Of a DNA stretch of 64,000 nucleotides, positions 14,158 through 44,796 are shown piece after piece. Position numbers and translations under genes: made by a program. The number at the start of each line of letters is the position of its first letter. Position 1 is the stretch's first letter. The DNA is from an uncultured Croceitalea sp. (lineage in GTDB: Bacteria > Bacteroidota > Bacteroidia > Flavobacteriales > Flavobacteriaceae): assembly GCA_947503285.1 (NCBI GenBank), contig CANNDD010000001.1, positions 496,001 to 560,000 on the forward strand. The letters are read 5' to 3'. Below the pieces are notes generated by a model that had not been told where the DNA came from, made no database searches, and saw nothing but the letters and a program-made list of their open reading frames with translations.

Positions 14158-15294
14158 ATGACAGCGCAAATTACCGAAAAACCCTATATACTCGCAGTTG
14201 ATGATGAGCAATTAAATCTGGAACTACTGCGCTTTATCCTAGAACGGAACAATTATGAATATAAGGGTACGAGCGATGACGATTATTTTTTTGAACTGCT
14301 GCAACAACAGGTTCCCGACCTAATTTTATTGGATGTTATCATGCCAAGAATCGAAGGTTTTGAACTCTGTCAAAAATTAAAGAGCATTCCTGAATACAAA
14401 AATATTCCCGTCATATTCTTAACCGGTAAGGTAAATATAAAAGATAAGGTAAAGGGGTTCGAAGTCGGCGGTGTTGATTACGTCACCAAACCTTTTAATG
14501 AACAAGAACTCATTGCCCGTATACAGACACACGTAGAACTTATTCGCGCTAAAAATCAAATTGAGTTACAAGCTGAAAACCTAAGACAATCGAACATTTT
14601 AAAAGATCGGATGTTCTCCATCATCGGTCATGACCTACGATCACCTTTAAGTGCTGCAAAATTAAAGATGGATTTTATCATGCGGGGTATTATTGACCCT
14701 AAGTCTGACGAGTTTCTTGATGGTACGGTATATGAGCTTTTAAAGACCATGGATGAGGCCTTGAACCTGCTCCAAAACTTGTTGGGCTGGGCAAAATCAG
14801 AAAGTAATCAAATACAGATCATACCCGAAAATCTTGATGTTTTTGATTTGGTAGAACAGACTTTCCGCTTATTGAAATTGGGCAGCGAACATAAAAAAAT
14901 CAATTTGGTCAATAATGTACCAAAAGACACTATGGTCTATGCAGACATGAACACGGTCAAAACCGTTCTAAGAAACTTACTTTCGAACGCCATCAAGTTT
15001 ACACCTGTTGATGGTTTGATTCAAGTAAACTCAAACACTGAGAATGGTCGTTTGACCATTGAGGTAGAAGATAACGGTCAAGGAATACCAAAAGAAGATA
15101 TTGGCAAAATTCTCAACCCGAATGAGCATTTTAGCAAGCTTGGCACTGAAAAAGAACCTGGCACTGGTTTAGGATTGATACTATGTCAAAACTTTGTGCA
15201 TAAGAATGGGGGAACCTTGAATATCAGAAGTGAGGTTGGTAAAGGAAGTGTTTTTTACTTTGACTTGCCCATCCATACAAAACAACTTGCTTAA
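14158..15294 (+). CDS. Receiver-histidine kinase hybrid
   Basis: This 378-residue soluble protein has an N-terminal receiver domain (acidic pair in AVDDEQ, phospho-acceptor D59 in LLDVIMP, lysine in KPFN near 111), a short coiled linker, HisKA with H158 in FSIIGHDLRSPLS, and an HATPase domain with NLLSNAIKF, DNGQGIP and GTGLGL boxes. Receiver-first kinases usually take phosphate from another kinase to alter their own activity. It is the only plus-strand gene inside the polysaccharide locus, divergent from rfbB, and its stop overlaps the GT2 stop by 4 bases. A role in controlling polysaccharide synthesis is likely by position. Confidence 0.92.
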   Translation: MTAQITEKPYILAVDDEQLNLELLRFILERNNYEYKGTSDDDYFFELLQQQVPDLILLDVIMPRIEGFELCQKLKSIPEYKNIPVIFLTGKVNIKDKVKGFEVGGVDYVTKPFNEQELIARIQTHVELIRAKNQIELQAENLRQSNILKDRMFSIIGHDLRSPLSAAKLKMDFIMRGIIDPKSDEFLDGTVYELLKTMDEALNLLQNLLGWAKSESNQIQIIPENLDVFDLVEQTFRLLKLGSEHKKINLVNNVPKDTMVYADMNTVKTVLRNLLSNAIKFTPVDGLIQVNSNTENGRLTIEVEDNGQGIPKEDIGKILNPNEHFSKLGTEKEPGTGLGLILCQNFVHKNGGTLNIRSEVGKGSVFYFDLPIHTKQLA

Positions 15295-21764: not shown

Positions 21765-23111
21765 TTATACTTGGGCAGTTGCTGTTGTATTGACTGCTTC
21801 ACGCCCAATGCTGTAATAACCGAAGCCGATTTCTTCCATCTCTTCGGGATCATATATATTTCTACCGTCGAAAATGGTGTGGCCATTCATCAGCTTTTCC
21901 AAAATCCTGAAGTTCGGCATTCTAAACTCTGACCATTCGGTCACTACGATCAATGCGTCAGCATCGATACAGGCATCGTATTCATCTTTGGCATATTCAA
22001 TGGTATCGCCTAAAATGCGCTCTGCCTCTTCCATAGCCACCGGATCATATGCACGTATATTTGCACCCATCGCCTTGAGTTGTTCAATGATCACTAGAGA
22101 AGGTGCTTCCCTCATATCATCGGTTTTTGGTTTAAAGGCCAAGCCCCATAGTCCAAACTGCTTCCCTTTTAGGTTTTCACCAAAGTGTTTTTTGATTTTT
22201 TCGACCAAAGTGGTCTTTTGACGGTAGTTTACGGCCTCGACAGCTTTTAAAACCTCTAGGGAATGGCCGTATTCATCTGCCGTTCTTACCAGGGCCTGAA
22301 CATCTTTAGGAAAACAACTGCCTCCATAGCCCGTACCGGGATAAATAAACTTATTACCGATCCTGGTATCAGAACCGATACCCTTACGGACCAAGTCAAC
22401 ATTGGCACCCACCAATTCACATAAGTTGGCGATATCGTTCATGAAACTGATTTTAGTCGCCAACATGGAATTGGCAGCGTATTTGGTCATTTCAGAAGAG
22501 AAGATGTCCATAAATAATAACGGATGACCGTTCATTAAAAATGGTTTATACAAACGCTTCATTACTTTTTCAGCTCGCTTGCTTTCGATACCGACAACAA
22601 TGCGGTCGGGCTTTAAAAAATCATCAACCGCACTGCCCTCTTTCAAAAACTCTGGATTGGATGCCACATCAAACGGAATTCTAATCCCACGTTTGACCAG
22701 TTCTTCTTCAACAGCGGCCTTAACCTTAAAAGAGGTACCTACGGGAACCGTACTCTTGGTAATGATGACTTTGTAGTCTTCCATATGTTGCCCAATCTCA
22801 CGGGCCACACCCAATACATATTTTAAATCAGCACTACCATCTTCATCTGGCGGGGTACCGACAGCAATGAATACCGCGTCGCAATCTTTTATCGCTTTTT
22901 CCAAACTTGTCGTAAAAGAAATTCTACCTTTATCAATGTTACGTTCTAAAAGGGTATCTAAACCAGGTTCATAAATGGGCACTTCCCCATTTCGAAGCAT
23001 GGCTACCTTCTTCTTATCGATATCAACACATACTACGTTGATTCCTGTTTCTGCAAAACAAGTACCGGTCACTAGACCAACATACCCCGTTCCAATTACT
23101 GCAATATTCAT
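21765..23111 (-). CDS. ugd: UDP-glucose 6-dehydrogenase
   Basis: This 448-residue enzyme oxidises UDP-glucose twice to UDP-glucuronate. The N-terminal NAD fold is [16 protein letters not shown], the middle domain has [20 protein letters not shown], and the catalytic cysteine lies in YGGSCFPKD near residue 262, with a C-terminal UDP-binding domain. It heads the operon ugd - UDP-xylose synthase - GT2 - GT4 - GT-B - acyltransferase - GT2. Its upstream region carries the shared GTTTGACAAC motif twice, 21 bases apart. Confidence 0.96.
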
Positions 23112-23176
23112 TTATTAAAGCTTTTTCGTTATATTTTTGTAAATATTATCTTACAATTTTAAGATTGAAAAATATT

Positions 23177-23205
23177 GTTGTCAAACGATATATAATCGTT
23201 GTCAA
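23177..23205 (-). promoter_or_regulatory. Shared upstream motif, two copies 21 bp apart, ugd promoter
   Basis: The plus strand carries GTTGTCAA at 23177-23184 and again at 23198-23205, exactly 21 bases apart. Read on the minus strand, the proximal copy is GTTTGACAAC, 29 bases before an AATATTTA box (23140-23147) and 66 bases before the ugd start. The 21-base direct-repeat spacing is typical of LytTR-domain regulators. Confidence 0.6.
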
Positions 23206-23226: not shown

Positions 23227-25191
23227 TTAGCGTTGGTACCAATCAAGGCTCTCTACGCCTCCTGAATTTGCCCAGTTTATAAATCGTGGGTACTGCAGGG
23301 TAATGGGAACTGATTCTGGCGGGGTGTCAAAGCCCTCATAGATATTCAGGGCCCACGGCAAATTGGTCGCCGTTTTATAATAACGCCCTATCGAAGCATC
23401 TGAAAAGTCATCTTGAGTACCTAAGTAACCCGCCTTGCTCGTTGGTGGCAAGTCTGGAAGATGTACTTCACGCGCCCTATCGCCATTAGAGATTAAGAAC
23501 GTATTGAAAGGAATCTCACCCAAAACCGATTCACTGACCGGTGAATTGAGTTCGACATTGATGTTTACGGTAGTGCCCTTTAAATCAAAAGCATCACCGA
23601 CCACGAGTATCACCGCTTCGTTGGTTCCCGTACCTGTTTCGGTACCATTTGCGGCCACGGTTTCAAAACCCCCATTCAAAATTTGGCCGTCTACACTGGC
23701 AACAATACTTGGGTCTATCGGAAGGACAAATCCGAACCCATTGTGCAAGGCTCCACCAATCTCTTCAATCGTAAAGGTGGCATCAATTGCAGTGACCATA
23801 TTATCGCCGTTTGCAATCAGGTTAAAGGCATAATCCAACGCGAGATCGTTAAAGTCATAGTCGCCCTGACTTGGCCATAAATCTTCATAAACCAATTTTC
23901 CCGTTGAATTTACAGATGGCGAAAAATTGCTGAATGCCTTATTGGGATCAAAAGGAAAATCATCCAACTCATCATTGATTCCGTCACCATCAGCATCGGT
24001 CGCCGCTTGTATTTGGGCCAAATTACCTACTTGAATGGCATCTACGGGATTCGACTTTGCATAAAATACGGCATCGTTAAAATCATCGTCCGTAGGCCCA
24101 TCCCTAAATAGATCTTCAAAACCCAGCAAGGTCAATTCCCTACCTTCATCATACAGAAGCACCATATGGTTTCTTCTTTCTGGGGTAGCTTCAGGATTGA
24201 AATCAGGGTTTGAATAGTACACACCATTACCATCTTGCACATCACCCCAAGCCCATCCGTTTGCGGCTAAAAACCAAGAAACGACCGTGTTTGCCGGAAA
24301 TCTACCTAAGTACACACGATCACCCGGTATTAAGCCTCCCCCTGAATATTGCATGGATACATTCGGAAATATGACATAATGGGGATCTATTTCATCGGTT
24401 GATGCCGGTTCTTGACCTATAGGATGGGAGTAATAACCCAAAACATTGCGATACCCGGCCCCCTCTGATACAAAAGTTACCCAAACATCAGCTTCCTTTG
24501 TAATGATTAAACTAGTTTCTTTACCCGCTAAGTAATCGGGATTCGTTACGGGAATTCCACCCGGCACGTTTTCAGGCAGGGAAGCATTGATATCATCCAA
24601 TAAGTTTTGCTCAATGACATCTTGAAAAGCAAGATTATCGGGTACGCCCCAAAAATCAAAGGTATCAATGAAAGTATAGTTGTCCACATTCCGCGATGGC
24701 AAAATCGTTCTTTTAGGGTTTATTTTAGATTTTCCCGAACTACCTTGCCGCTCATAAAAGGGCCTATAGTCAAATGCAATGGTATTCGTTTCAACAGGCA
24801 GGCGCACATTGTCAATAAGACCAATGTAGTTAGAGAACAAGAGTAGACTGTCCGTTCTTGAACTTAAGGTAAACGCTTTCTTATAATGCCCGCCATCATC
24901 AAAAGTGCCCTTACCGATCAAAGTACTATCCTGCGCCCCTATTTTGCTGTAAAGGGTAAATACCGCACCCTTAAGGTTTGAAGGCACATCCAATTCAAGG
25001 GTTACGTCTTTACTGGTCGCATAATCGAACTCAGCTGAAACATTCAATGCATTTAGAGGGTCACTGGAGTCGACATCATCGGTGCCACCCATACTATCAT
25101 CGGTTAAATTTTGGTCGAGATCATTTTCATTTACGCATCCAATAATGGCAAATGCTAAAAAGACCACATACATTAATTTAAAAGTCTTCAT
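23227..25191 (-). CDS. LruC domain lipoprotein
   Basis: This 654-residue protein is counted from the ATG at 25191. A lipoprotein signal (MKTFKLMYVVFLAFAIIGC) precedes an acidic linker. Longer frames start inside a dispersed repeat and are not credible. A DUF4114-like segment (LTLLGFEDLFRDGPTDDDFNDAVF) precedes a DADGDGINDELDDFP calcium-binding-type spacer and the C-terminal LruC domain (VYEDLWPSQGDYDFNDLALDY through the terminal LDWYQR). LruC proteins are surface or secreted proteins of unclear function. Lying alone between two polysaccharide operons, it may anchor or organise the polymer (inference). Confidence 0.85.
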   Translation of the reverse strand: MKTFKLMYVVFLAFAIIGCVNENDLDQNLTDDSMGGTDDVDSSDPLNALNVSAEFDYATSKDVTLELDVPSNLKGAVFTLYSKIGAQDSTLIGKGTFDDGGHYKKAFTLSSRTDSLLLFSNYIGLIDNVRLPVETNTIAFDYRPFYERQGSSGKSKINPKRTILPSRNVDNYTFIDTFDFWGVPDNLAFQDVIEQNLLDDINASLPENVPGGIPVTNPDYLAGKETSLIITKEADVWVTFVSEGAGYRNVLGYYSHPIGQEPASTDEIDPHYVIFPNVSMQYSGGGLIPGDRVYLGRFPANTVVSWFLAANGWAWGDVQDGNGVYYSNPDFNPEATPERRNHMVLLYDEGRELTLLGFEDLFRDGPTDDDFNDAVFYAKSNPVDAIQVGNLAQIQAATDADGDGINDELDDFPFDPNKAFSNFSPSVNSTGKLVYEDLWPSQGDYDFNDLALDYAFNLIANGDNMVTAIDATFTIEEIGGALHNGFGFVLPIDPSIVASVDGQILNGGFETVAANGTETGTGTNEAVILVVGDAFDLKGTTVNINVELNSPVSESVLGEIPFNTFLISNGDRAREVHLPDLPPTSKAGYLGTQDDFSDASIGRYYKTATNLPWALNIYEGFDTPPESVPITLQYPRFINWANSGGVESLDWYQR

Positions 25192-25254
25192 GGTTTTGGG
25201 GAATTTAATATTAGGTTTTAAGGATTTCACTTGATTATACAAGCGGTAAATCTT

Positions 25255-25262
25255 GTTGTCAT
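25255..25262 (-). promoter_or_regulatory. Possible shared upstream motif, LruC gene
   Basis: GTTGTCAT on the plus strand (ATGACAAC on the minus strand), 64 bases before the LruC lipoprotein start, a similar distance to the motif copies before ugd and rfbB. I cannot see a good -7 box at the matching distance, and a dispersed repeat begins directly upstream. It is weaker than the other copies. Confidence 0.35.
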
Positions 25263-25265
25263 ATC

Positions 25266-25313
25266 GAGCGCAGTCAAGATGTTTTGCCAGCCTTTCGACT
25301 GCGCTCAAGGAGA
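25266..25313. repeat. Dispersed inverted repeat, clean copy
   Basis: GAGCGCAGTC (25266-25275) pairs perfectly with GACTGCGCTC (25297-25306), separated by 21 bases and followed by AAGGAGAC. Weaker copies occur at 1873-1897 and 9255-9305. Such short inverted repeats look like a REP-type intergenic family. Confidence 0.7.
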
Positions 25314-32105: not shown

Positions 32106-33332
32106 TTAAACATTTTCTTTTTGAAAAACAGCTTTGAACGTTCTTAGGATAATCCACATATCAATTAAGAAGGCATATTTGCTATTGGCATATTTTACAT
32201 ACTTGACATCAAGTTGTTTTCTTTCTTCGGGTGACATTTTTGAAGATCTACCACGCGCCTCTACTTGCCAAAGGCCGGTAATTCCGGCTGGGCCGTTAAA
32301 ACGCTCCGTCCACTCATCGGTAGTCAACATTTCAGCTTCATAAAGGGGTAATGGCCGATTACCTACAATCGACATATCGCCTTTCAGAACATTGATCAGC
32401 TGAGGCAACTCATCAATACTGAGCTTTCTAATGATCTTGCCCACCTTGGTAATACGTGGGTCATTGTCAAATTTTATAAAAGCGCTTTTTGCGCTTTCCT
32501 TTCTTTTTTGATTATGTGCTATCTCATCTACCTCAGCATCATCACTGATAAGCACGGTACCTTGAATCTTTTTCTCACCCGCATCACTTGCGATTTGCCC
32601 TGAATCATCTTCATGCACATACTGGTTTAAATGTTCAAACTCTTTCAAGCGTTTATCTGCATCAGGGTACATTGAACGCAACTTTAAGAAATTGAATATC
32701 CTATAGCCTGTACCGACCCTTTTGGAGATATAGTACACCTTACCTTTTGATTCTAATCGAATCGCCAGAATGACAAGTAACAAAAACGGGGATGCCAGTA
32801 ACAATACGGAACCTGCCAACAATAGGTCAAAGCTCCGTTTCCAGAAACCAATCTTATACTTCTTTAACTGGGCGTTACTGGATTGGATTTTCTGCTTACG
32901 TAAGTTTAGCTTTAATTCTTTTAAAAAGTCAATGCGCTCTAAAAGACGATCAAAACGAACGGGATGGGCGAAGAAATCATCAAATCCATTCTCAATGGCC
33001 AGAAGTTTTTCTTCTTTGGTCAGTTTTTTCCCCAAAAGCAAAAACGGTATTTTCTGTGCCGGATCGAACGTTTTTTCTATGTAGCGCTTAAGTTCCAACA
33101 ATTCTTGCCGCGGTATACCGTGTTCACACAAAAACGCATCCACTGCATTACCTACATTGATCCATTGGCCCTTTTTGAATTCGGCATTAGTGTGCAACCA
33201 CTTAATGGCCTCAACCGTAGTAACGGTTGAATGTACGTTGACCCTATCGGTTTCACGATGGAACTCTTCGGCCAAACGCTTGTTGGCCCCTATGTATAGC
33301 ACTTGGGTTTTCTTTTGGGTTAAGACCTCCAT
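32106..33332 (-). CDS. Initiating sugar transferase fused to a receiver-like domain
   Basis: This 408-residue protein ends in a bacterial sugar transferase domain: membrane helix near residues 168-192, FLKLRSMYPDAD, SIDELPQLINVLKGDMSIVG, and GITGLWQVEARGR. It would attach the first sugar phosphate to undecaprenyl phosphate. Residues 1-145 do not match the usual WcaJ membrane region. They look like a pseudo-receiver, ending in LLAIENGFDDFFAHPVRFDRLLERI, which parallels LRLGADDYMVKPFNPEELLIRV of the neighbouring response regulator. The acidic pair and phospho-aspartate are missing. An acidic insertion lies near 232-285. Confidence 0.9.
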   Translation of the reverse strand: MEVLTQKKTQVLYIGANKRLAEEFHRETDRVNVHSTVTTVEAIKWLHTNAEFKKGQWINVGNAVDAFLCEHGIPRQELLELKRYIEKTFDPAQKIPFLLLGKKLTKEEKLLAIENGFDDFFAHPVRFDRLLERIDFLKELKLNLRKQKIQSSNAQLKKYKIGFWKRSFDLLLAGSVLLLASPFLLLVILAIRLESKGKVYYISKRVGTGYRIFNFLKLRSMYPDADKRLKEFEHLNQYVHEDDSGQIASDAGEKKIQGTVLISDDAEVDEIAHNQKRKESAKSAFIKFDNDPRITKVGKIIRKLSIDELPQLINVLKGDMSIVGNRPLPLYEAEMLTTDEWTERFNGPAGITGLWQVEARGRSSKMSPEERKQLDVKYVKYANSKYAFLIDMWIILRTFKAVFQKENV

Positions 33333-33333
33333 A

Positions 33334-33699
33334 CTAACTGCGGATTAACAGTTTGTCTACTCTTATGAGTAATTCTTCAGGATTAAATGGTTTCACCATA
33401 TAATCGTCCGCTCCAAGTCGCAGACACTCCACCCTATCGGCTGAACTATCCCTGCAGCTTAATACGATTATTGGGATATCGGAAAAAAGTCCGGTTCCCT
33501 TTATTTGTTTGATCAGTTCAAAACCATCCATTTCAGGCATTTCGAGATCTGTAATGATCAAATCAGGTATATTGCCTTCTTGCAACCATGAAATGGCCGA
33601 CAAGCCATTCTCCATAGTGGTTACATTATGTGATTGTCCTAGAAACTGTGCGACCAATTCACTCAAAGACTGCTTGTCATCAACTACCAATATTTTCAT
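33334..33699 (-). CDS. Single-domain response regulator
   Basis: This 121-residue CheY-like receiver has the acidic pair in VVDDKQ (D7, D8), phospho-acceptor D51 in ITDLEMP, and the conserved lysine in VKPFNPEE, with no output domain. It is the first gene of the core polysaccharide operon and one base upstream of the sugar transferase that carries a receiver-like domain. Direct protein-protein control of the transferase is an attractive guess. Its promoter carries the shared motif (33766-33794) and a TACTTTTC box (33729-33736). Confidence 0.93.
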   Translation of the reverse strand: MKILVVDDKQSLSELVAQFLGQSHNVTTMENGLSAISWLQEGNIPDLIITDLEMPEMDGFELIKQIKGTGLFSDIPIIVLSCRDSSADRVECLRLGADDYMVKPFNPEELLIRVDKLLIRS

Positions 33700-33765
33700 A
33701 ATTTCTGTTTTGTAGTATTATTAGAAACGAAAAGTAGGATTAATATTACTTTTAATGAATTGATT

Positions 33766-33794
33766 GTTGTCAAACAAGAGCTAAGTGTTGTAAT
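33766..33794 (-). promoter_or_regulatory. Shared upstream motif, two half-sites 21 bp apart, core polysaccharide operon
   Basis: GTTGTCAA at 33766-33773 and GTTGTAAT at 33787-33794 lie 21 bases apart. On the minus strand the proximal copy is GTTTGACAACAAT, identical over 13 bases to the ugd copy, 29 bases before a TACTTTTC box and 67 bases before the response-regulator start. Confidence 0.6.
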
Positions 33795-34030: not shown

Positions 34031-34333
34031 TTACACGCGATCGGAACTTAGGATGTAATCGGTCTTAGTAGTATTCATTACTTCCGAAATTTCTTTGTTC
34101 TGTCTTCCTACTATGGCCAGCACTTTATGATTGGCAGCCACTTGTTTATACAATTTTTCAAAAAACAGGGCAACACTTGAATCCATAACAGTAACCTTTT
34201 CTAAACTGATTACCATTTCATCGGTTACCTCTAAAGCCGACTCAAAATAAACTTTCAAAGCCCCTAAATTCTGCGAAGTAAGCTCTCCGATCACTTCAAA
34301 TATTCCTTTATCCTCTTTTATTTCCAATGCCAT
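34031..34333 (-). CDS. STAS domain protein (anti-sigma factor antagonist-like)
   Basis: This 100-residue single STAS domain starts with EIKEDKGIFEVIGELTSQN and has the central signature ISLEKVTVMDSSVALFF. The serines S52/S53 sit where SpoIIAA-type proteins are phosphorylated. It could be a phospho-switch bound by a kinase or sigma regulator, but no RsbW-like kinase is visible nearby. It is the last gene of the signalling cluster, 51 bases after the LytTR regulator, and is followed by a strong terminator. Confidence 0.85.
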   Translation of the reverse strand: MALEIKEDKGIFEVIGELTSQNLGALKVYFESALEVTDEMVISLEKVTVMDSSVALFFEKLYKQVAANHKVLAIVGRQNKEISEVMNTTKTDYILSSDRV

Positions 34334-34384
34334 TTGACAGCTATTTTAGATTAAATATGTTATTTCTTATAATGTTTAGATCAT

Positions 34385-35098
34385 TTACAAAAGATTCAAC
34401 CGTTGCATAAGACTGGGCCTATTCGAACGACTTATGGGGATGACATTTCGTTCAATCAAAACACTATTGTCTTGAATATCAATAATCTTAGTATAATTTA
34501 TGATGTATGACCGATGAATCTGCATAAATAGCGATTGCGGCAATTTTTCCCTAATCTTTTTTAATGTGGAATGCACCCTATAAAACGATTCGGTAGTTTT
34601 GATCTCTATATAATCGCCTTTGGCTTCAATCAATAGTATATCCTTGAATTTTAGTTTTATCAACCGCCTATCAATATTGATGTATAAATGGTCTTCTTTG
34701 GGTACTGCACCAACACCTTCGCGTTCTTCATCAGTCACTGGCGCGTATTCGGTATGTTGAAGTTTCACCATTGTTTTTTGAAAACGCCCATGGGTAATCG
34801 GTTTGACCAAATAATCTACAATAAAGGGATAACTATAAGCGGCTATCGCGAAATTCGTATCCGACGTTGTCAATACGATTCGTGGAGGGGTTTGTAAGGT
34901 TTCAATGAAATCAAACCCCGTCAACATGGGCATATGAATATCCAAAAATATAACGTCGACCTGGTGATGTGGCAAAAACTTCAATGCTTCCACGGCATTT
35001 GAAAACTGGCCAATGACTTTTAAGTCTTCACACGATTCACAAAGTTCGGCAACGATTGCCCTCGCGGTCAATTCATCGTCTATGATTATACAGTTCAC
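34385..35098 (-). CDS. LytTR-family response regulator
   Basis: This 237-residue protein has a receiver domain (IIDDE near residues 5-9, phospho-acceptor D53 in FLDIHMP, KPI near 98) and a C-terminal LytTR DNA-binding domain (DILLIEAKGDYIEIKTT, FMQIHRSYIINYTKI, IPISRSNRP). LytTR proteins bind pairs of short direct repeats about 21 bases apart. It is the only DNA-binding output in this signalling cluster and follows the Hpt gene by one base. The 21-base repeats before ugd and the 33.7-kb operon are candidate targets. Confidence 0.94.
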   Translation of the reverse strand: MNCIIIDDELTARAIVAELCESCEDLKVIGQFSNAVEALKFLPHHQVDVIFLDIHMPMLTGFDFIETLQTPPRIVLTTSDTNFAIAAYSYPFIVDYLVKPITHGRFQKTMVKLQHTEYAPVTDEEREGVGAVPKEDHLYINIDRRLIKLKFKDILLIEAKGDYIEIKTTESFYRVHSTLKKIREKLPQSLFMQIHRSYIINYTKIIDIQDNSVLIERNVIPISRSNRPSLMQRLNLL

Positions 35099-35099
35099 T

Positions 35100-35423
35100 T
35101 TATGCGATTTTTAATATAAATTCCTCTACCGTTGTCAATACATCCATAAACTCATCTTTGAGTTTGGTATCACCGTACTTCAAGTCTTCTTCATATTTTA
35201 TGGCCAATTTGTACGCACCGTTCAGCCCCAAAATACCTAACTTGTGTTTTATTTTGTGTACTACCTTGGCAGACTCTTCCAGTTCTTGTTCTTGAAGTAG
35301 TCTGGTGTAGTCTTTTTTTTCGTTCGGAAATTCGGCCTGTATGATGGATAGGAATTTCTTTTCGAATTCTTCGTTCCCTCCCGCAATCTCCTTGATATAG
35401 TTCAAATTTGGTTTCTCACCCAT
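35100..35423 (-). CDS. Hpt domain phosphotransfer protein
   Basis: This 107-residue helical protein has the phosphorelay histidine at H56 in SAKVVHKIKHKLGILGL, which fits the Hpt pattern. It would shuttle phosphate between the histidine kinases and receivers of this cluster. It overlaps the upstream kinase gene by one base and precedes the LytTR regulator by one base, supporting a kinase - Hpt - LytTR relay. Confidence 0.88.
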   Translation of the reverse strand: MGEKPNLNYIKEIAGGNEEFEKKFLSIIQAEFPNEKKDYTRLLQEQELEESAKVVHKIKHKLGILGLNGAYKLAIKYEEDLKYGDTKLKDEFMDVLTTVEEFILKIA

Positions 35424-36475
35424 TAGATTTTCGTTTTTATTGTAAAAAAGAATGTGGTACCCATACCTTCTTCTGAAGAAAGCCAGATATCCCCTTTGTA
35501 ATAGTTGATTATTTTTTTGACCAATGCCAATCCGATTCCAGTCGCATTCGCATCATTTTCCAATTTCTTGAACATATTGAAAATACCGGCCTGTAGGTGT
35601 ACCGGAATTCCCTTGCCATTATCTTTGACACTGAACAGCCATTTGTCTTCTTGTTCCGCTGCACTAATGACAATAAAGCCTTCTTTCTCTGCTTCAAGTG
35701 CCGTAACGGCATTGGTTAGTAAATTTTTAAAGAGCTGTTCTATTCTATACTTGCCCGTATATAAAATCGGTAATCTGTCCTTTATTACAATTTTAATATG
35801 ATTTGGCACATAAATCGTTTGGTCAATTTCTTTGATTAATAAATTCAAATCCACTTTGGCTATTTTCTCTTCTAAAGAATCAATGGTAGCATGTTTCAGA
35901 ATGCCATCTATTAAACTGTCCATTTTAGATAGATTTTGAAAAATGAGATCAAAGTTCTTCTTGTTATCATTTTCCAATTTATTCGGGGCATCTTCAAGAA
36001 CCCAACTGACCAAGGAATGAATATTTCGAATTGGCGATTTCAAATCATGCGAAACCATGTGTGCATAATTGTTCAGTGATTCGTTTTGCTGCTCAAGGTT
36101 TTTAAGAAGATGGTCTTTCTCGGCCGTAATCTCAACGATTTTATTCGTTTGATTTTCAATATTCTCCACTAATCTTTGAGGGTCAAAACCAAGTGACCCA
36201 CGTTCCATGGTATTCGTCTTACTTTCCATAAATGCAACAGCTTTACTCAAGGCCTCAAGTACTTTGCGCTGGCTCTCGGTCTCTATATTCAACCTTTTAT
36301 TGGCCTCATAAAGTTCTTTTGAGCTCAATGATGTGGCATGCTGGATCATCTCAAGCTTATCATCATAGTCTGAATACGAATTGGCTATCGATTCAAAGAA
36401 GACATCGAGGCCCTTATGATTTTGCAGATCTTTGGGCAAATACTTTTTTATTTGACGTTCGAGCAGAGAGTGCAT
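35423..36475 (-). CDS. Soluble sensor histidine kinase (FIST-associated)
   Basis: This 350-residue protein has no membrane helix. An N-terminal region with long coiled helices (about residues 40-145) leads to HisKA with H153 in MVSHDLKSPIRN and HATPase boxes NLLTNAV, DNGKGIP and GIGLALVKK. It starts directly after the FIST gene stop, with no gap. FIST/NosP proteins commonly act through a co-encoded soluble kinase, so this is probably the kinase controlled by the FIST protein. Confidence 0.93.
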   Translation of the reverse strand: MHSLLERQIKKYLPKDLQNHKGLDVFFESIANSYSDYDDKLEMIQHATSLSSKELYEANKRLNIETESQRKVLEALSKAVAFMESKTNTMERGSLGFDPQRLVENIENQTNKIVEITAEKDHLLKNLEQQNESLNNYAHMVSHDLKSPIRNIHSLVSWVLEDAPNKLENDNKKNFDLIFQNLSKMDSLIDGILKHATIDSLEEKIAKVDLNLLIKEIDQTIYVPNHIKIVIKDRLPILYTGKYRIEQLFKNLLTNAVTALEAEKEGFIVISAAEQEDKWLFSVKDNGKGIPVHLQAGIFNMFKKLENDANATGIGLALVKKIINYYKGDIWLSSEEGMGTTFFFTIKTKI

Positions 36476-37603
36476 TTATTCGCTGAGTAATGTTAAGGTC
36501 ATGGTTTGATTATGTAATTGGCATTCATTTTTGCCCGCAAAAGGGGCCATTTCCCCATAAGAGTAAAATCCGGTAATCTTAGCTTGATTGCCTATGACCT
36601 CTTTTACTTCTTCTATTTCTTCTTCAGTGCGCTGGGCCAACACTAATTTTCTTCCCACGCAACTTACCAATATGGCCAATTGAGGGCTATTTTTGCGGTT
36701 CATCATCGCAAATTCCGCCGCATTTGATGCTCCTTGCGCGATATCACCCGTGGTAGACATCATTAGTTGCACCTTTGAATTTACAGGAACATCCCCTGCT
36801 AAAATCATCGAATTTGCTTCTTCATCAATATTCAAAATAGTTCGTACCAAAGATTCCGCACCTTCATGTTCTTGAACGGTCAATGGGTATAACAATGCGG
36901 CTTTGGGCAGCTCTTTCGCTTTTTCACCCAAATAGGTTTTATAGAGATCCAAAGCTGGTTTTCCATCGATTTCATACAGCACGTTCCCAATTGATTTGGT
37001 AATTGTCCTTTCAGGACCAAAAGAAGTCCAACCCCCATAATTCGCATACGAAACCTCCAATTGGCTTCCATAGAAACCAATGGCAATTACCTCGCCTTGT
37101 TTCGGATTTTCATTGTATGAGGTCAACGTTTTTTCAAAACGTGCCCCATCACCACATAGTCCACCGGTTATTGATGCTTTGAACTCTTCATCAGATTCCA
37201 GCCCTTCAATGAGACCACTTCCATTTACAAAGCTGCCATCAGAAACAACAAACAAATGACAGAGATCTTCCTTTTCAAATTGATCTGCTATGGCCCGACC
37301 CATTTTCTTGATGTCTACATAATCTGCCACGTTCTCATTGACTATTTTAAATTTCGTTTTCTCGAATTCAATAGCGGTCAATGTAATGGTCCCCTCAAAA
37401 ACATTGGTCTCCAAAATTTCACCCGAAGTGGAACCAAAAACAAGTTCCCCGTCAGGATACAGCTCACGTATCTCGATATAAATGGTATCTGATTCGAGAA
37501 TATACCGGTCTGCAAAGATCAATACCAATGGTTTTACCAATTTTTCATTTTGACGGAAGGTCCACTCACCATCTTTAGTTCTTATCGCCTGATTTACTTT
37601 CAT
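36476..37603 (-). CDS. FIST domain sensor protein (NosP-like)
   Basis: This 375-residue soluble protein has FIST_N (about residues 28-200, with GSTSGEI and ITGGLCGDGARFEKT) and FIST_C (about 215-360, ending GFYSYGEMAPFAGKNECQLH then NQTMTLTLL). FIST proteins are ligand sensors. Some, named NosP, bind heme and sense nitric oxide and regulate histidine kinases. Histidines are present at CHLF, EHEG and LHNQT, so heme binding is possible but not shown. It sits between the four-PAS kinase and its likely partner kinase. Confidence 0.92.
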   Translation of the reverse strand: MKVNQAIRTKDGEWTFRQNEKLVKPLVLIFADRYILESDTIYIEIRELYPDGELVFGSTSGEILETNVFEGTITLTAIEFEKTKFKIVNENVADYVDIKKMGRAIADQFEKEDLCHLFVVSDGSFVNGSGLIEGLESDEEFKASITGGLCGDGARFEKTLTSYNENPKQGEVIAIGFYGSQLEVSYANYGGWTSFGPERTITKSIGNVLYEIDGKPALDLYKTYLGEKAKELPKAALLYPLTVQEHEGAESLVRTILNIDEEANSMILAGDVPVNSKVQLMMSTTGDIAQGASNAAEFAMMNRKNSPQLAILVSCVGRKLVLAQRTEEEIEEVKEVIGNQAKITGFYSYGEMAPFAGKNECQLHNQTMTLTLLSE

Positions 37604-37618
37604 GATTTCTTCAATGAT

Positions 37619-39979
37619 TTATTTTTTTAAGGTGAAATAGAATATGGTTCCCTTGCCTATTTCACTTTCTAACCATACCGATCCGTGATACAGGTCTATA
37701 ATTTTTTTAACTATTGACAATCCGATACCCGTAGACCTTTCATTGTTACCAATGGATTGAAAAATCTTGAATATTTTTTCATGGTATTCCTTCGGTATTC
37801 CGACACCATTATCTTTTACACTGAATTGCCAATGGGTGGGTGTTTCTTTACTTTCAATTTCGACAAGGCCTTCTTTCTTATCAATATTGACTACGGCATT
37901 GCTCAAAAAGTTTTGAAACAATTGATGGATTTTGGTTTTGTCGGCTATAATGATGGGGAGTTTACCCACTATCTTGATTTGAACATGTTCAGGTATGAAT
38001 ATGATTTCGGATATCTCGTTTATGACCTTATTGACATCGACTTCTTTATGATCTAAAGTATCGCTATTGACCGTTGAATATTTTAGTATGCCCGTAATCA
38101 ATTTGTCCATCCCCTCTACTTTTTCGAGCATCATTTTTAAATTATACCGACCACTTTCGTCCAATTGGTCTTTATAGTCATCATACAACCATGTCGCTAA
38201 GGCGCTAACACTGCGTAATGGTGATTTTAAATCGTGTGAGACAATGTGTGCGTACTCTTGAAGTCCCTTATTGCTTTCTTCAAGCTCATTGACCAATTGT
38301 TGCTTTTGTTGCTCGAGTTCTTTTTGTTTTGTGATATCAAGATGTACCCCAATAGACCCATTTACTTTACCAAATTCATCATATTTGGGTGCCCCACTGA
38401 TAAGCCAATGTCTTTTTTCGCCGTTATGCAGTTTTACCTCAATCTCGTATGAATCGGATTCATTTCTTCGTCGTTTTTCAAATTGTGCCTTGATTTTATC
38501 TAGGTTTGCCTCATCCAATCCCATCACCTTCAATACATCTTTACCCATAAGATCCTCAGCATTGATGTCAATCATCTCTGAATATCTGTTATTGACCAAT
38601 AGAATCTCACCTTCTGCATTGATCTCGACCAAACCGAGGTTCATATTGGCGATGATGCTGCCGTATTTCTCTTTTTGTATCTCAAGATTCTTTCTGTAGT
38701 TCTTTCTAAGGGTCACATCACTATAGCTCCAGAGGTGCCCTTTATACACATCATCGATTATCAAAGGAATGTAATCCAATTCAAAGGTGCGGCCATCGAC
38801 CAATTCAAGTTCATCGGATAGTACCAACTCTTTTTTGTTGAGTATATGGTTGATCCTCTTTATAATGTAATCGGGGTCGACGAAAAGTTCTTTGTACTTA
38901 TTCAAATACTTTCTACAATCCAAGCCCTTTAACTTCTGGGGAGATAGCGGAATTGCAAAAAGGTCACAGAATTTTTGATTGGTCAAGATCATTTTCCTGT
39001 TTTCATCTTCAAGCAGGATTCCGTTTTGGAAATTTCGTATCAAGGTGGTCAACCGCTGTTCAGAGGCCCTTATCTTTTCTTCCGATATTTTATCGTTGGT
39101 AATATCCTCAATCATGGCAACCTTGTAATCAATGCCACCGTGTTCGTTACGTAAAGTGTTCACTGAGGTTTTACCGTATATAGAGGTTCCATCTTTTTTA
39201 TGGAACTTTCTTATGATCGAGAACCTGTCTGATTCACCTCTTTCATTATCATCCAACAAATCCCTGTACAGGCTGACATCTTCTATGGTTGAAATGGCAT
39301 CTATGCTTAGTTTCTTCAATTCTGCCTCTGTATAGCCCAAAAGCTCGATAAAGGCATTGTTCGCCTTTACGATTTTGTCTTGCTCTATCAAAAGAATACC
39401 TAGTGATGAGTTTTCGACTATAATATCCTGTTGTTGTTTTTGCTGTTCTAAAAGCTCTTTGATCTCAATCTCGCGTGTAATATCACGAATGACACCTTGT
39501 GCTGCTATCGGGCTCCCTTCTTCATCGTAGATAAGGCTGGCATTTATGTTCACAAACCGATCACCATTATGTTGTGTTCGTATTTGAACATTGTAATTTT
39601 TGAGAATACCTACCTGTAAAAGGGTTTTAAAAGATTCAGCGGTGTACTCTAAATAATCTTCGTGTACCAATTCTGATAAGGTGATGTCTTCTTTGGTATG
39701 ATCATAACCCAGAAACTCTTTTGCGCTTGTGTTCATATTGACAACCTTGGTTGTCATATCCATAACCACATAAGGGTCAATGATATTAACGAAGGCCCCG
39801 TCAATTTTTGAATCGTCTTTGCTCAGCAAGGCCTCCAATCTTCCATTGGCCTCTTTCAAGTGCAGTGAGGCATCGTATAGCTCTTTAGACTTACTTTCAA
39901 GCAAACGTTCTGCCTCTTTACGCGCTTTTTTTTCACGTGATAGTGCGCGGTGCAATATTGAGATATCCACTTTATCCAT
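37619..39979 (-). CDS. Four-PAS sensor histidine kinase
   Basis: This kinase of about 786 residues is counted from the ATG at 39979 (MDKVDISILHRALSREKKAR). This start overlaps the H-NOX stop in ATGGATAA, while a frame starting at 40018 would overlap more. A basic coiled coil is followed by four PAS domains (approximate starts 60, 180, 310 and 430), HisKA with the histidine near 581 in HIVSHDLKSPLR, and HATPase boxes NFLSNAV, DNGVGIP and GIGLSIVKK. There are no membrane helices. It is the likely kinase partner of the H-NOX protein. Confidence 0.93.
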   Translation of the reverse strand: MDKVDISILHRALSREKKARKEAERLLESKSKELYDASLHLKEANGRLEALLSKDDSKIDGAFVNIIDPYVVMDMTTKVVNMNTSAKEFLGYDHTKEDITLSELVHEDYLEYTAESFKTLLQVGILKNYNVQIRTQHNGDRFVNINASLIYDEEGSPIAAQGVIRDITREIEIKELLEQQKQQQDIIVENSSLGILLIEQDKIVKANNAFIELLGYTEAELKKLSIDAISTIEDVSLYRDLLDDNERGESDRFSIIRKFHKKDGTSIYGKTSVNTLRNEHGGIDYKVAMIEDITNDKISEEKIRASEQRLTTLIRNFQNGILLEDENRKMILTNQKFCDLFAIPLSPQKLKGLDCRKYLNKYKELFVDPDYIIKRINHILNKKELVLSDELELVDGRTFELDYIPLIIDDVYKGHLWSYSDVTLRKNYRKNLEIQKEKYGSIIANMNLGLVEINAEGEILLVNNRYSEMIDINAEDLMGKDVLKVMGLDEANLDKIKAQFEKRRRNESDSYEIEVKLHNGEKRHWLISGAPKYDEFGKVNGSIGVHLDITKQKELEQQKQQLVNELEESNKGLQEYAHIVSHDLKSPLRSVSALATWLYDDYKDQLDESGRYNLKMMLEKVEGMDKLITGILKYSTVNSDTLDHKEVDVNKVINEISEIIFIPEHVQIKIVGKLPIIIADKTKIHQLFQNFLSNAVVNIDKKEGLVEIESKETPTHWQFSVKDNGVGIPKEYHEKIFKIFQSIGNNERSTGIGLSIVKKIIDLYHGSVWLESEIGKGTIFYFTLKK

Positions 39980-40514
39980 TTTGAACAATTGCAAATTGCA
40001 CTTCAGTTCCGGCTTCATTCAACAGTTCGTAATCTACCGTAACGGTATTACCAAAATATTCGAAGGTCTTATTGATAAGTCCATTTGCCAGTGCATAAAG
40101 CCCCCTTGATGAGCTATAGATCATTACCAGTGATGTTTCTGTTTTTTCAAGGATCTTGAAATTGGGTAGTTCTGCGTCTGGATATAATTTTTTTACGTGA
40201 ATATGAATATGGTCTTCAATGGCATAAATAAGTGCTAGGGGATTTTTATAGGCACGTACCACCTCGGGGTGTGCCTTACACAATCCATCAAAAAGATAAT
40301 ACCCGAAAGAATATAATAAATCGTTTATCGGCATCTTTGAGGTTTCACTCAGACAAGTAAGTAAAGACACCATCTCATTAAAATCATAAGTGCCTACCGC
40401 AGTATATGCGCCTTCTGATTCAAGCGTCGAATTTTCGATAATGGAATCCACCACCTCCAATCCGAAAGTAGTTTCGACCATTTCTAAAAATTCAGTAAAC
40501 ACAATTCCTTTCAT
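39972..40514 (-). CDS. H-NOX (heme NO/O2-binding) protein
   Basis: This 180-residue protein has the H-NOX fold signature MKGIVFTEFLEMVETTFG, a proximal heme histidine in the DHIHIHVKKLYPDAELPNF stretch (best candidate H104), and the diagnostic YxSxR motif as Y133-S135-R137 in YSSSRGLYALANGL, which holds the heme propionates. H-NOX proteins bind nitric oxide and switch a partner kinase. It overlaps the kinase gene by 8 bases. Its promoter has a TACTTTTA box and the shared TTTCACAAC motif. Confidence 0.94.
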   Translation of the reverse strand: MKGIVFTEFLEMVETTFGLEVVDSIIENSTLESEGAYTAVGTYDFNEMVSLLTCLSETSKMPINDLLYSFGYYLFDGLCKAHPEVVRAYKNPLALIYAIEDHIHIHVKKLYPDAELPNFKILEKTETSLVMIYSSSRGLYALANGLINKTFEYFGNTVTVDYELLNEAGTEVQFAIVQNG

Positions 40515-40570
40515 AATACAGAATATTATGATTTAAAAGTAAGAATTGGACTACTTTGCTAAAAAATAAT

Positions 40571-40580
40571 GTTGTGAAAT
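40571..40580 (-). promoter_or_regulatory. Shared upstream motif, H-NOX promoter
   Basis: The minus strand reads ATTTCACAAC, 29 bases before TACTTTTA (40534-40541), which is nearly identical to the TACTTTTC box of the core polysaccharide operon at the same spacing. The distance to the start codon is shorter (57 bases), so the fixed spacing is to the box and not to the ATG. Confidence 0.55.
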
Positions 40581-40591
40581 GCCAATTTTAG

Positions 40592-40990
40592 TTAGGCTTT
40601 GATAAGTTCACTTATCTCCCAATAATCGAATACGCGTTTTAGTTTAAACTCGTAATCCTCATATTTTAAAGGCTTTATAATATAACCGGCAATACCAATT
40701 TCAAAACACTTCAATAAATCGACCCGATTTTCTGATGTGGTCAAAATTATGGTTGGCAAATATTTGAAACGCGGATTTGCTTTTAGAACACCTAAGAATT
40801 CTATACCGCTCATTCGGGGCATATTCAAGTCAAGTAAAATGATATCTGGTAAATTACCTTCGTTTAAGATGGCTAAGGCTTCTTCACCGTTTTTGGCTTC
40901 GATAATATTGTGTTTTGATTCGAACTTTGAAATTGCACGTTGCATTTTCATTGATTCAATCATATCATCTTCTATAAACAATACATTCAC
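40592..40990 (-). CDS. Single-domain response regulator
   Basis: This 132-residue CheY/Rcp1-like receiver has the acidic pair in FIEDDM (D8, D9), phospho-acceptor D54 in LLDLNMP, and the lysine in IIKPLKYED. There is no output domain. It precedes the H-NOX gene by 77 bases on the same strand. It may receive phosphate from the PAS kinase and act by protein contact. Having its own promoter is possible, since the H-NOX gene also shows one. Confidence 0.92.
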   Translation of the reverse strand: MNVLFIEDDMIESMKMQRAISKFESKHNIIEAKNGEEALAILNEGNLPDIILLDLNMPRMSGIEFLGVLKANPRFKYLPTIILTTSENRVDLLKCFEIGIAGYIIKPLKYEDYEFKLKRVFDYWEISELIKA

Positions 40991-43632: not shown

Positions 43633-44796
43633 TTACAAATTAAGCATAAAAAGGTCTGCCGCTATACCGTCGGCCAAGAACTTTCCTTTCTTTGTGGTCA
43701 ATAGGTTTCCGTTATCCAAATAAAGCAAATGTTCCTGAACGTACTTTTCGGCCTGTAGCCTTAGATATTCTTCATACTTTTCACCAAACTCGGCCGCTAT
43801 CCTAGAGAATGAAACCCCCCAAATGGTTCGCAACCCGGTCATTATATATTCATTGTACTTGTCGGTTTTGGACAAAACCTCAACCTCCATTGGAAGTTTT
43901 CCGTCGGATATGGCTTTGATGTAGTTCGAATTGTTATTGATGTTCCAACCCCTTCTATCCCCGTCAAAAGAATGTGCTGAAGGCCCAATACCCAAATATT
44001 TTTTCTGCTGCCAATACGCCGAATTGTTCTTTGAAAAATACCCAGGTCTTGCAAAATTTGAAATTTCGTAACCAGCATATCCCATTGAAGTCAACGTCTC
44101 ATTTAAGATATTGAAATGTTCTTGGGCAACTTCATCCCTTACTGGTGCTATCAATCCTTTTTCAACGAACTTGGCCAATGCTGTTTTAGGCTCCACGGTA
44201 AGTGCATAGCTAGAGATGTGCGGTATTTTAAATGATAAGGCTTTCTCAATATTGGACTTCCAGCGTTCATTTGACATATTGGGAATACCATAGATCAAAT
44301 CGATTGAAATATTATTAAAACGCTTTTTCGCTTCGCGGATACATAACTCGGCCTCGAGGGCATTGTGTGCCCTGTTCATAAGCTTTAAATCTTCTTCGTA
44401 AAAAGATTGGATTCCGATACTTAATCGGTTTATAGGACCTTGGGCCAATTCATTGATCTTACTTTCAGAAAGGTCATCGGGGTTTGCTTCTAGCGTTATC
44501 TCTGCATCTGGCACTACCTCATAGTTTTCATAAATGGTATGGACCAGTTTTAGAATCTCAGATGTATTTAAAACGGAAGGGGTACCCCCGCCAAAATAAA
44601 TGGTCTCCACCACCTCTTCTGAAAACTCCGCTTTTCTGAGCACCAACTCTTTTGAAAGGGCTTCAAGCATTTCCACCTTTTTTTTCAAATTGGTCGAAAA
44701 ATGAAAGTCACAATAATGGCAGGCTTGCTTGCAAAAAGGAATGTGGATGTATAGGCCCCCTCCGCCCCCAGAGGGGGAACGCTCTTCTTTGCTCAT
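43633..44796 (-). CDS. hemW: HemW-type radical SAM protein (heme chaperone)
   Basis: This 387-residue radical SAM enzyme has the cluster-binding motif CKQACHYC (C21, C25, C28), then YFGGGTPSVL and the HemW-type GIGPSAHSF. HemW is a heme chaperone once annotated as oxygen-independent coproporphyrinogen oxidase. Family members normally begin right before GLYIHIPF. Here the first 13 residues (MSKEERSPSGGGG) are encoded by a G/C-rich repeat that seems to have entered the start of the gene. Confidence 0.94.
   Translation of the reverse strand: MSKEERSPSGGGGGLYIHIPFCKQACHYCDFHFSTNLKKKVEMLEALSKELVLRKAEFSEEVVETIYFGGGTPSVLNTSEILKLVHTIYENYEVVPDAEITLEANPDDLSESKINELAQGPINRLSIGIQSFYEEDLKLMNRAHNALEAELCIREAKKRFNNISIDLIYGIPNMSNERWKSNIEKALSFKIPHISSYALTVEPKTALAKFVEKGLIAPVRDEVAQEHFNILNETLTSMGYAGYEISNFARPGYFSKNNSAYWQQKKYLGIGPSAHSFDGDRRGWNINNNSNYIKAISDGKLPMEVEVLSKTDKYNEYIMTGLRTIWGVSFSRIAAEFGEKYEEYLRLQAEKYVQEHLLYLDNGNLLTTKKGKFLADGIAADLFMLNL
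44751..44780 (-). repeat. G/C-rich repeat inside the hemW start
   Basis: The minus strand reads TTCCCCCTCTGGGGGCGG followed by AGGGGGCCTAT. It matches the plus-strand copy at 44872-44898 in the ruvC 3' end (about 22 of 27 positions). It encodes the extra glycine-rich N-terminus of HemW. Confidence 0.7.

Follow-up and report, generated by a model that had tools for sequence, protein, structure and literature searches.

A conserved Flavobacteriaceae operon pairing H-NOX and FIST genes, proposed to encode a branched phosphorelay with an optional second arm

In the portions of the literature available to us, nitric oxide (NO) control of biofilms concerns Proteobacteria and acts mostly via cyclic di-GMP (c-di-GMP), and two-sensor networks with c-di-GMP outputs are already known. 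A close counterpart of the system described here is the H-NOX-HnoK-HnoB/C/D network of Shewanella oneidensis and Vibrio cholerae where, according to the accessible parts of the reports, H-NOX likewise controls a kinase and a further arm, that of the FIST protein NosP, joins the network. Our subject is an operon in a 64,000-nt window (the whole stretch of DNA analysed, from contig CANNDD010000001.1 of an uncultured Croceitalea sp.), which carries an H-NOX gene and a FIST gene together with two histidine kinases (HK1 and HK2), a lone response-regulator receiver (RR1), an Hpt protein and a LytTR response regulator. We propose, with a probability of about 0.62, that it encodes a branched phosphorelay of four steps, each of its two arms having an accessory sensor. 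Coordinates are positions in this window; the source genome comprises 4.34 Mb in 29 contigs and is 99.98% complete.

Compared with the Shewanella and Vibrio network, as far as the accessible accounts go, both sensors lie in one operon here, and whereas the outputs there are largely c-di-GMP enzymes, a LytTR regulator stands here behind RR1 and Hpt; the source genome gave no GGDEF match at E up to 0.001. In the Legionella pneumophila hnox2 operon H-NOX, a kinase and a lone CheY-like receiver likewise occur together, but the portions of the reports at hand name no FIST gene in that operon and place NosP in a separate one. The Spo0F-Spo0B-Spo0A pathway passes phosphate from several kinases through a lone receiver and a phosphotransferase to a DNA-binding regulator; the present locus differs in having separate heme-family sensor proteins and a LytTR output domain. 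In the NosP-NahK/NosK-NarR/NosR operons, too, the FIST gene adjoins that of a kinase in which no sensory domain is recognised (PMC12570481), but NosR and NarR have, in the parts of the source seen, c-di-GMP-type domains, and the FIST protein here falls far below the NosP equivalog cut-off. Finally, FIST genes near hnox already appear in a published neighbourhood network of H-NOX group 1 (PMC8738867), and Cellulophaga algicola is named in the accessible text of another paper among group 1 examples (PMC7108781). That network is a neighbourhood statistic only, and the available text of PMC8738867 contains neither LytTR nor Hpt nor Bacteroidetes, with Flavobacterium present only in the title of a reference. 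The original prediction made from this DNA knew of no such combination in Flavobacteriia, but it is widespread in Flavobacteriaceae, and the FIST-hnox proximity was already in print. The titles and abstract beginnings returned by our literature searches, which left subscription papers mostly out of reach, held no description of this two-sensor relay system; as far as these searches reach, the wiring and the optional arm are new, while the sensor families are known.

Ten minus-strand genes lie between 40990 (RR1) and 32106 (a sugar transferase gene). The conserved core order is RR1, H-NOX, HK1, FIST, HK2, Hpt and LytTR, after which come STAS, a second receiver (RR2) and the transferase. The first eight are as follows.

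40592..40990, minus strand: RR1, stand-alone CheY-like receiver (Pfam Response_reg 73 bits; D8, D9, D54, K106)
39972..40514, minus strand: H-NOX accessory sensor, 180 amino acids (aa) (Pfam HNOB 125 bits; H104, Y133-S135-R137)
37619..40018, minus strand: HK1, PAS histidine kinase, 799 aa (Pfam PAS and HATPase_c; TIGR00229; phospho-acceptor H595 in HDLKSP)
36476..37603, minus strand: protein with FIST and FIST_C domains, 375 aa, the first of the two cassette genes discussed below (Pfam FIST 140 bits, FIST_C 122 bits; H364)
35423..36475, minus strand: HK2, soluble kinase with no PAS match, second gene of the cassette (HisKA/HATPase_c; H143)
35100..35423, minus strand: Hpt, 107 aa, proposed phospho-histidine H56 (Pfam Hpt 21.5 bits, sub-threshold)
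34385..35098, minus strand: LytTR response regulator, D53, proposed output (LytTR 67 bits, Response_reg 64 bits)
34031..34333, minus strand: STAS protein, an adjoining accessory outside the seven-gene core (Pfam STAS 38.5 bits)

These are the eight co-oriented open reading frames (ORFs) of the original prediction, all present where it had placed them and with matching Pfam domain families (Hpt below cut-off). Their description as mostly overlapping was loose, the gaps from RR1 to STAS being 77, -47, 15, 0, -1, 1 and 51 nt.

Histidine kinases normally do not phosphorylate Hpt proteins directly, the usual chemistry being a transfer from the kinase to a receiver, then to Hpt and then to another receiver. 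Since a kinase-to-Hpt transfer thus needs an aspartate step, RR1 is proposed as that step. In the phosphorelay that we favor, H-NOX would control the PAS kinase HK1 in one arm and FIST the soluble kinase HK2 in the other, the latter arm being an optional cassette between HK1 and Hpt. Both kinases would phosphorylate RR1 (D54), from which phosphate would pass to Hpt (H56) and on to D53 of the LytTR regulator, with a change in transcription as the result. The observations behind this scheme are gene content and order, conserved catalytic residues, the joint presence or absence of FIST and HK2, the alike kinase halves and the lack of a GGDEF match; what we infer beyond them is the direction of phosphoflow, the binding of heme and NO and the control of polysaccharide. 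The earlier claim that two NO sensors feed one Hpt-LytTR relay has fared well insofar as both sensors and their kinases belong to one conserved unit, with its order kept, FIST and HK2 found jointly and the two kinases each other's closest catalytic kin in the genome, but it left out the role of RR1.

The catalytic residues required for such a relay are almost invariant. In RR1 both D54 and K106 are present in 90 of 90 aligned loci, as is D53 of the LytTR regulator, and in Hpt H56 is kept in 90/90 and H60 in 89/90 (these counts leave out L143, L067 and L209; L and G numbers denote loci and genomes, respectively). The LytTR protein, with its receiver (64 bits) and LytTR domain (67 bits), is a response regulator, and at E up to 1 Hpt is matched five times in the genome.

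The H-NOX protein belongs firmly to its family by sequence, its HNOB domain scoring 125 bits against a Pfam cut-off of 25.5, and it is the only HNOB match in a profile search of the whole genome. Its closest solved structures are PDB 6bde/6bdd (E 4e-55), and H104 aligns with the proximal heme histidine of other H-NOX proteins. The predicted Y133-S135-R137 heme motif has all three residues at these positions; across 93 loci, the three omitted above included, conservation is 92 for H104, 93 for Y133, 93 for S135 and 88 for R137. Judging from these features, the protein is very likely a nitric oxide sensor. Ten Flavobacterium loci (L274, L275, L277, L281-L284, L286, L289 and L290) have another H-NOX subfamily in the H-NOX slot, with the proximal histidine retained.

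To what extent the arrangement is conserved was examined in 299 genomes from the source's family. HNOB occurs in 105 of them (109 matches), FIST in 87 (117 matches) and both in 68. The survey for H-NOX and FIST genes within 5 kb of each other that had been suggested with the original prediction finds them in 58 of the 299, that is, in 58 of the 105 genomes with H-NOX; in 57 of the 58 FIST is downstream and co-oriented, and the 58 genomes span 48 genera. Among the 57 loci fetched plus the window, the complete order RR1-H-NOX-HK1-FIST-HK2-Hpt-LytTR is kept in 52 of 58, a count that includes one locus with LytTR 1.2 kb further on (L066), one with HK2 split in two ORFs (L110) and two with a divergent FIST (L067 and L098). 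The gene order is therefore not due to chance, and the scatter that had been set beforehand as refuting the idea was not what these paired loci displayed. Besides four loci considered below, the exceptions are L084, whose cluster ends with a short FIST, and L063, which is arranged differently.

Two further samples extend this view. A scan with a FIST alignment, from which the best 80 of 537 relatives were taken (the named loci, L212-L291), yields loci that almost all belong to known genera of Flavobacteriaceae, with a canonical H-NOX in 68/80; these loci partly overlap with those of the family sample, so the counts are not independent. In a 395-genome phylum sample, which also overlaps the family sample, HNOB is present in 27 genomes and FIST in 89, and, as read by eye, 11 of the 27 have a co-oriented FIST gene at most 5 kb away, one of these 11 (G448) not belonging to the family; gene order is available only for those loci that are also in the family set. 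Upstream of the cluster, at 43633-44796 of the window, is a gene for a HemN/HemW-like radical SAM protein, presumably with a link to heme; as a candidate member of the system it was rejected, being upstream in only 36 of the 78 named loci with RR1. STAS directly follows LytTR in part of the loci only.

The behavior of FIST and HK2 is of particular interest. The 51 H-NOX matches without a nearby FIST were also fetched; after exclusion of L211, a degraded H-NOX match with no model match, there were 108 annotated loci, of which 15 with an incomplete set of H-NOX, HK1, Hpt and LytTR were set aside to leave 93 core loci. FIST and HK2 are both present in 52 of these and both absent from 40, HK2 occurs alone in one and FIST alone in none, while RR1, Hpt and LytTR stay in the 40 loci that lack the pair. 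FIST and HK2 thus behave as a single, optional cassette of two genes, placed between HK1 and Hpt. On a quick tree built from the other five genes, the presence of the cassette requires 15 changes, at least 11 of them forced by starred branches, as against an average of 30.6 when the labels are shuffled. Pairwise distances of cassette and core correlate closely across 50 loci (r 0.93, L067 and L098 left out), with none of 2000 permutations as high; we therefore think that most of the changes were probably losses of an old pair and not new gains. The pair can also be kept elsewhere in the genome, as in G002 (FIST-HK2, L199) and G050 (kinase-FIST-HK2, L198), where the H-NOX loci (L135 and L142) are without it; for the 59 FIST matches remote from H-NOX, the annotation covered 36 loci. 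Some loci away from H-NOX (L161-L163 and L165-L173) have two to four clustered FIST genes with an adjoining kinase gene.

Would the two kinases really converge on the same partner? An alternative is that the operon houses two separate two-component pathways, one kinase working with RR1 and the other directly with LytTR, and separate partners are conceivable inasmuch as RR1 and LytTR both have receivers and a third, RR2, is next door. We consider this quite unlikely. When the catalytic half of HK2 is compared with the 18 other places in the source genome that it matches at E up to 1e-5, its best match is HK1 (44% identity, 209 bits), the next reaching 33% and 116 bits. Moreover, the phospho-acceptor regions of HK1 and HK2 have a mean identity of 50%, alike within and between 52 loci (42% for the pair in the window), but of only 14-18% with those of 18 kinases beside other FIST genes. 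Retention of the entire RR1-Hpt-LytTR set in the 40 cassette-free loci also argues against separate pathways.

As to the sensory part of HK1, the four PAS domains originally predicted correspond to four sensory_box stretches by TIGR00229. Its length falls into groups of about 400, 530, 660, 700, 790 and 826 aa, and the H-NOX-FIST spacings cluster near 1350, 1730, 2115 and 2505 nt; we read both as presumed variation in the number of PAS domains. The structure model of HK2 has low confidence (pLDDT 70), for which reason a fold assignment was dropped and no fold is claimed. In L272 (11166-12449) and L282 (11102-12460) a further kinase has been inserted immediately before Hpt.

FIST is a more tentative NO sensor than H-NOX. 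With FIST and FIST_C domains (140 and 122 bits) and a FIST fold, the protein is a member of its family, and it is the single FIST match in a genome-wide profile search, but as an NO sensor of the NosP type, its earlier label, it is at most putative: the NCBIfam NosP equivalog model gives it 48 bits against a cut-off of 450. There is a nearly even chance that, within the same single relay, H-NOX alone senses NO and FIST a different cue (heme, a small ligand or redox state), so that two signals would be joined. Six other FIST proteins, two of them from like clusters, reach just 51-98 bits on the same model, and the H-NOX relay genes remain where FIST is absent. The V. cholerae FIST protein CdpA is listed as a heme sensor in the accessible part of one source, which treats NO binding by FIST as tentative (PMC8846402). 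On the other hand, the characterised NosPs, as the available text has it, bind NO through heme and act on a neighbouring kinase (PMC12570481), and our FIST does offer a near-universal histidine, H364 (66 of 69 aligned sequences). This residue is only a candidate heme ligand, in a loop that is of low confidence in the structure model; the available part of a review turned up by the literature search names no heme ligand of FIST, and FIST has no match at E up to 1 among the sequences of solved structures.

Several observations weigh against the branched phosphorelay. The likeness of HK1 and HK2 could come from ancestry instead of a common partner. Hpt, at 21.5 bits, is below its Pfam cut-off of 24.6. 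The FIST proteins of L067 and L098 are highly divergent (41 bits) and without the conserved histidine, and L209, from a genome with 8% contamination, has HK2 without FIST. Among the 58 paired loci, L083, L086 and L095 have no LytTR in the cluster and L071 has neither Hpt nor LytTR; LytTR is likewise absent from the cluster in 4/80 named loci. Lastly, eight of the 108 annotated loci (L063, L123, L131, L146 and L205-L208) have H-NOX and a PAS kinase with neither Hpt nor LytTR, although L131, L146 and L208 are near the end of the available sequence. L205 and L206 read RR1-H-NOX-PAS kinase, with no Hpt or LytTR matches despite kilobases of following sequence.

Beyond STAS, the window continues with these features.

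33765..33794, minus strand: direct repeat ATTACAACA-N12-TTGACAACA with a 21-bp period, candidate regulator site, 95 nt upstream of RR2
33334..33699, minus strand: RR2, the second lone receiver and first gene of the polysaccharide operon (Response_reg 102 bits)
32106..33332, minus strand: sugar transferase of the polysaccharide-initiating type with an N-terminal pseudo-receiver (Bac_transf 177 bits)
23176..23205, minus strand: the 21-bp-period repeat again, in a second copy 94 nt ahead of the UDP-glucose dehydrogenase-like gene listed below
21765-23111: UDP-glucose dehydrogenase-like gene (named from a homologue's Pfam match and phmmer)

The predicted distance of about 330 bases from STAS to the polysaccharide operon is right (331 nt), but the operon's first gene is the lone receiver RR2, 1 nt from the transferase. 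This operon would be the likeliest target of the relay in the clade of the source genome. The first 175 residues of the transferase, taken from aligned relatives, match RR2 and RR1 with hhalign probabilities of 98.3 and 96.3, and this pseudo-receiver has a glutamate at the phospho-aspartate position and a histidine in place of the lysine. Such a transferase, lying 1 nt after RR2, may permit polymer initiation to be controlled directly. The polysaccharide locus has at its far end a receiver-kinase hybrid on the opposite strand (14158-15294), and within the locus lies a DUF4114/DUF4842 protein gene (23227-25308); other genomes have DUF4114 also in sorting-tail proteins that follow LytTR.

That the operon is a neighbour and not a target, with the relay controlling other genes, is plausible at somewhat less than even odds. 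Adjacency of the relay to polymer production, as predicted, is real, but as a general link it is too wide: RR2 and the transferase are downstream in 23/80 named loci, mostly Flagellimonas, Allomuricauda, Croceivirga and Croceitalea, and the pseudo-receiver N-terminus of the transferase is present in just 6 of the 299 family genomes (E up to 1e-8). In all six, nevertheless, the transferase and H-NOX share a strand and are no more than 8 kb apart, which speaks against mere neighbourhood, and five loci outside this clade (L064, L076, L105, L120 and L179) have a related polysaccharide locus downstream. Of 93 loci, 37 encode a surface protein of the type IX secretion system kind in the 3.4 kb downstream, 14 have this kind of polysaccharide gene there (L126, L129 and L157 on one weak match), 16 have a different polysaccharide locus and 26 have nothing of the sort. 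Genes for surface or matrix are consequently present in the downstream flank of 67/93 loci and in the upstream flank of 1/93, which also argues for a functional connection, but the contrast is biased since the downstream genes themselves supplied the probes, and for three of the 67 the assignment depends on a single weak match. The polysaccharide link is real but clade-limited.

LytTR sites are spaced direct repeats. RR2 is preceded by a like repeat in 21 of the 23 polysaccharide-linked named loci, and in the source genome the 21-bp-period repeat occurs 38 times when 2 mismatches are allowed, compared with 12 for a reversed control. With 1 mismatch allowed there are 11 places, all outside ORFs of at least 120 aa, 7 of them with an ORF start at most 500 nt downstream. 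In the 80 named loci a control of the spacing between repeat units had a mixed outcome, with 27 hits at 21, but 44 at 17, 13 at 24 and 10 at 18. Enrichment of the repeat (at least 9 matches and double the control number) characterizes 31 of the 105 genomes with H-NOX versus 19 of the 194 without (Fisher p 3e-5, kinship uncorrected). Because genomes without H-NOX also have this enrichment, the repeat was rejected as the own site of the relay's LytTR, and this counts in favor of the polysaccharide operon being no more than a neighbour.

A broader and rather unlikely proposal, which we offer as speculation, is that the operon is a c-di-GMP-free gas-to-matrix switch common in Flavobacteriaceae. 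Its inputs, for NO or for NO and heme, would be H-NOX and FIST, which would meet at RR1-Hpt-LytTR; another H-NOX subfamily could take over the H-NOX slot, the FIST-HK2 plug-in would have been gained or lost many times, and in one clade the output would act also on polymer assembly through RR2 and the transferase pseudo-receiver. If the phosphorelay is as proposed, the same sensor families would be wired to a transcription regulator, without a detectable GGDEF protein, across a large bacterial family. The natural presence and absence of the FIST arm in relatives would then provide ready pairs for asking why a bacterium has two heme-family sensors.

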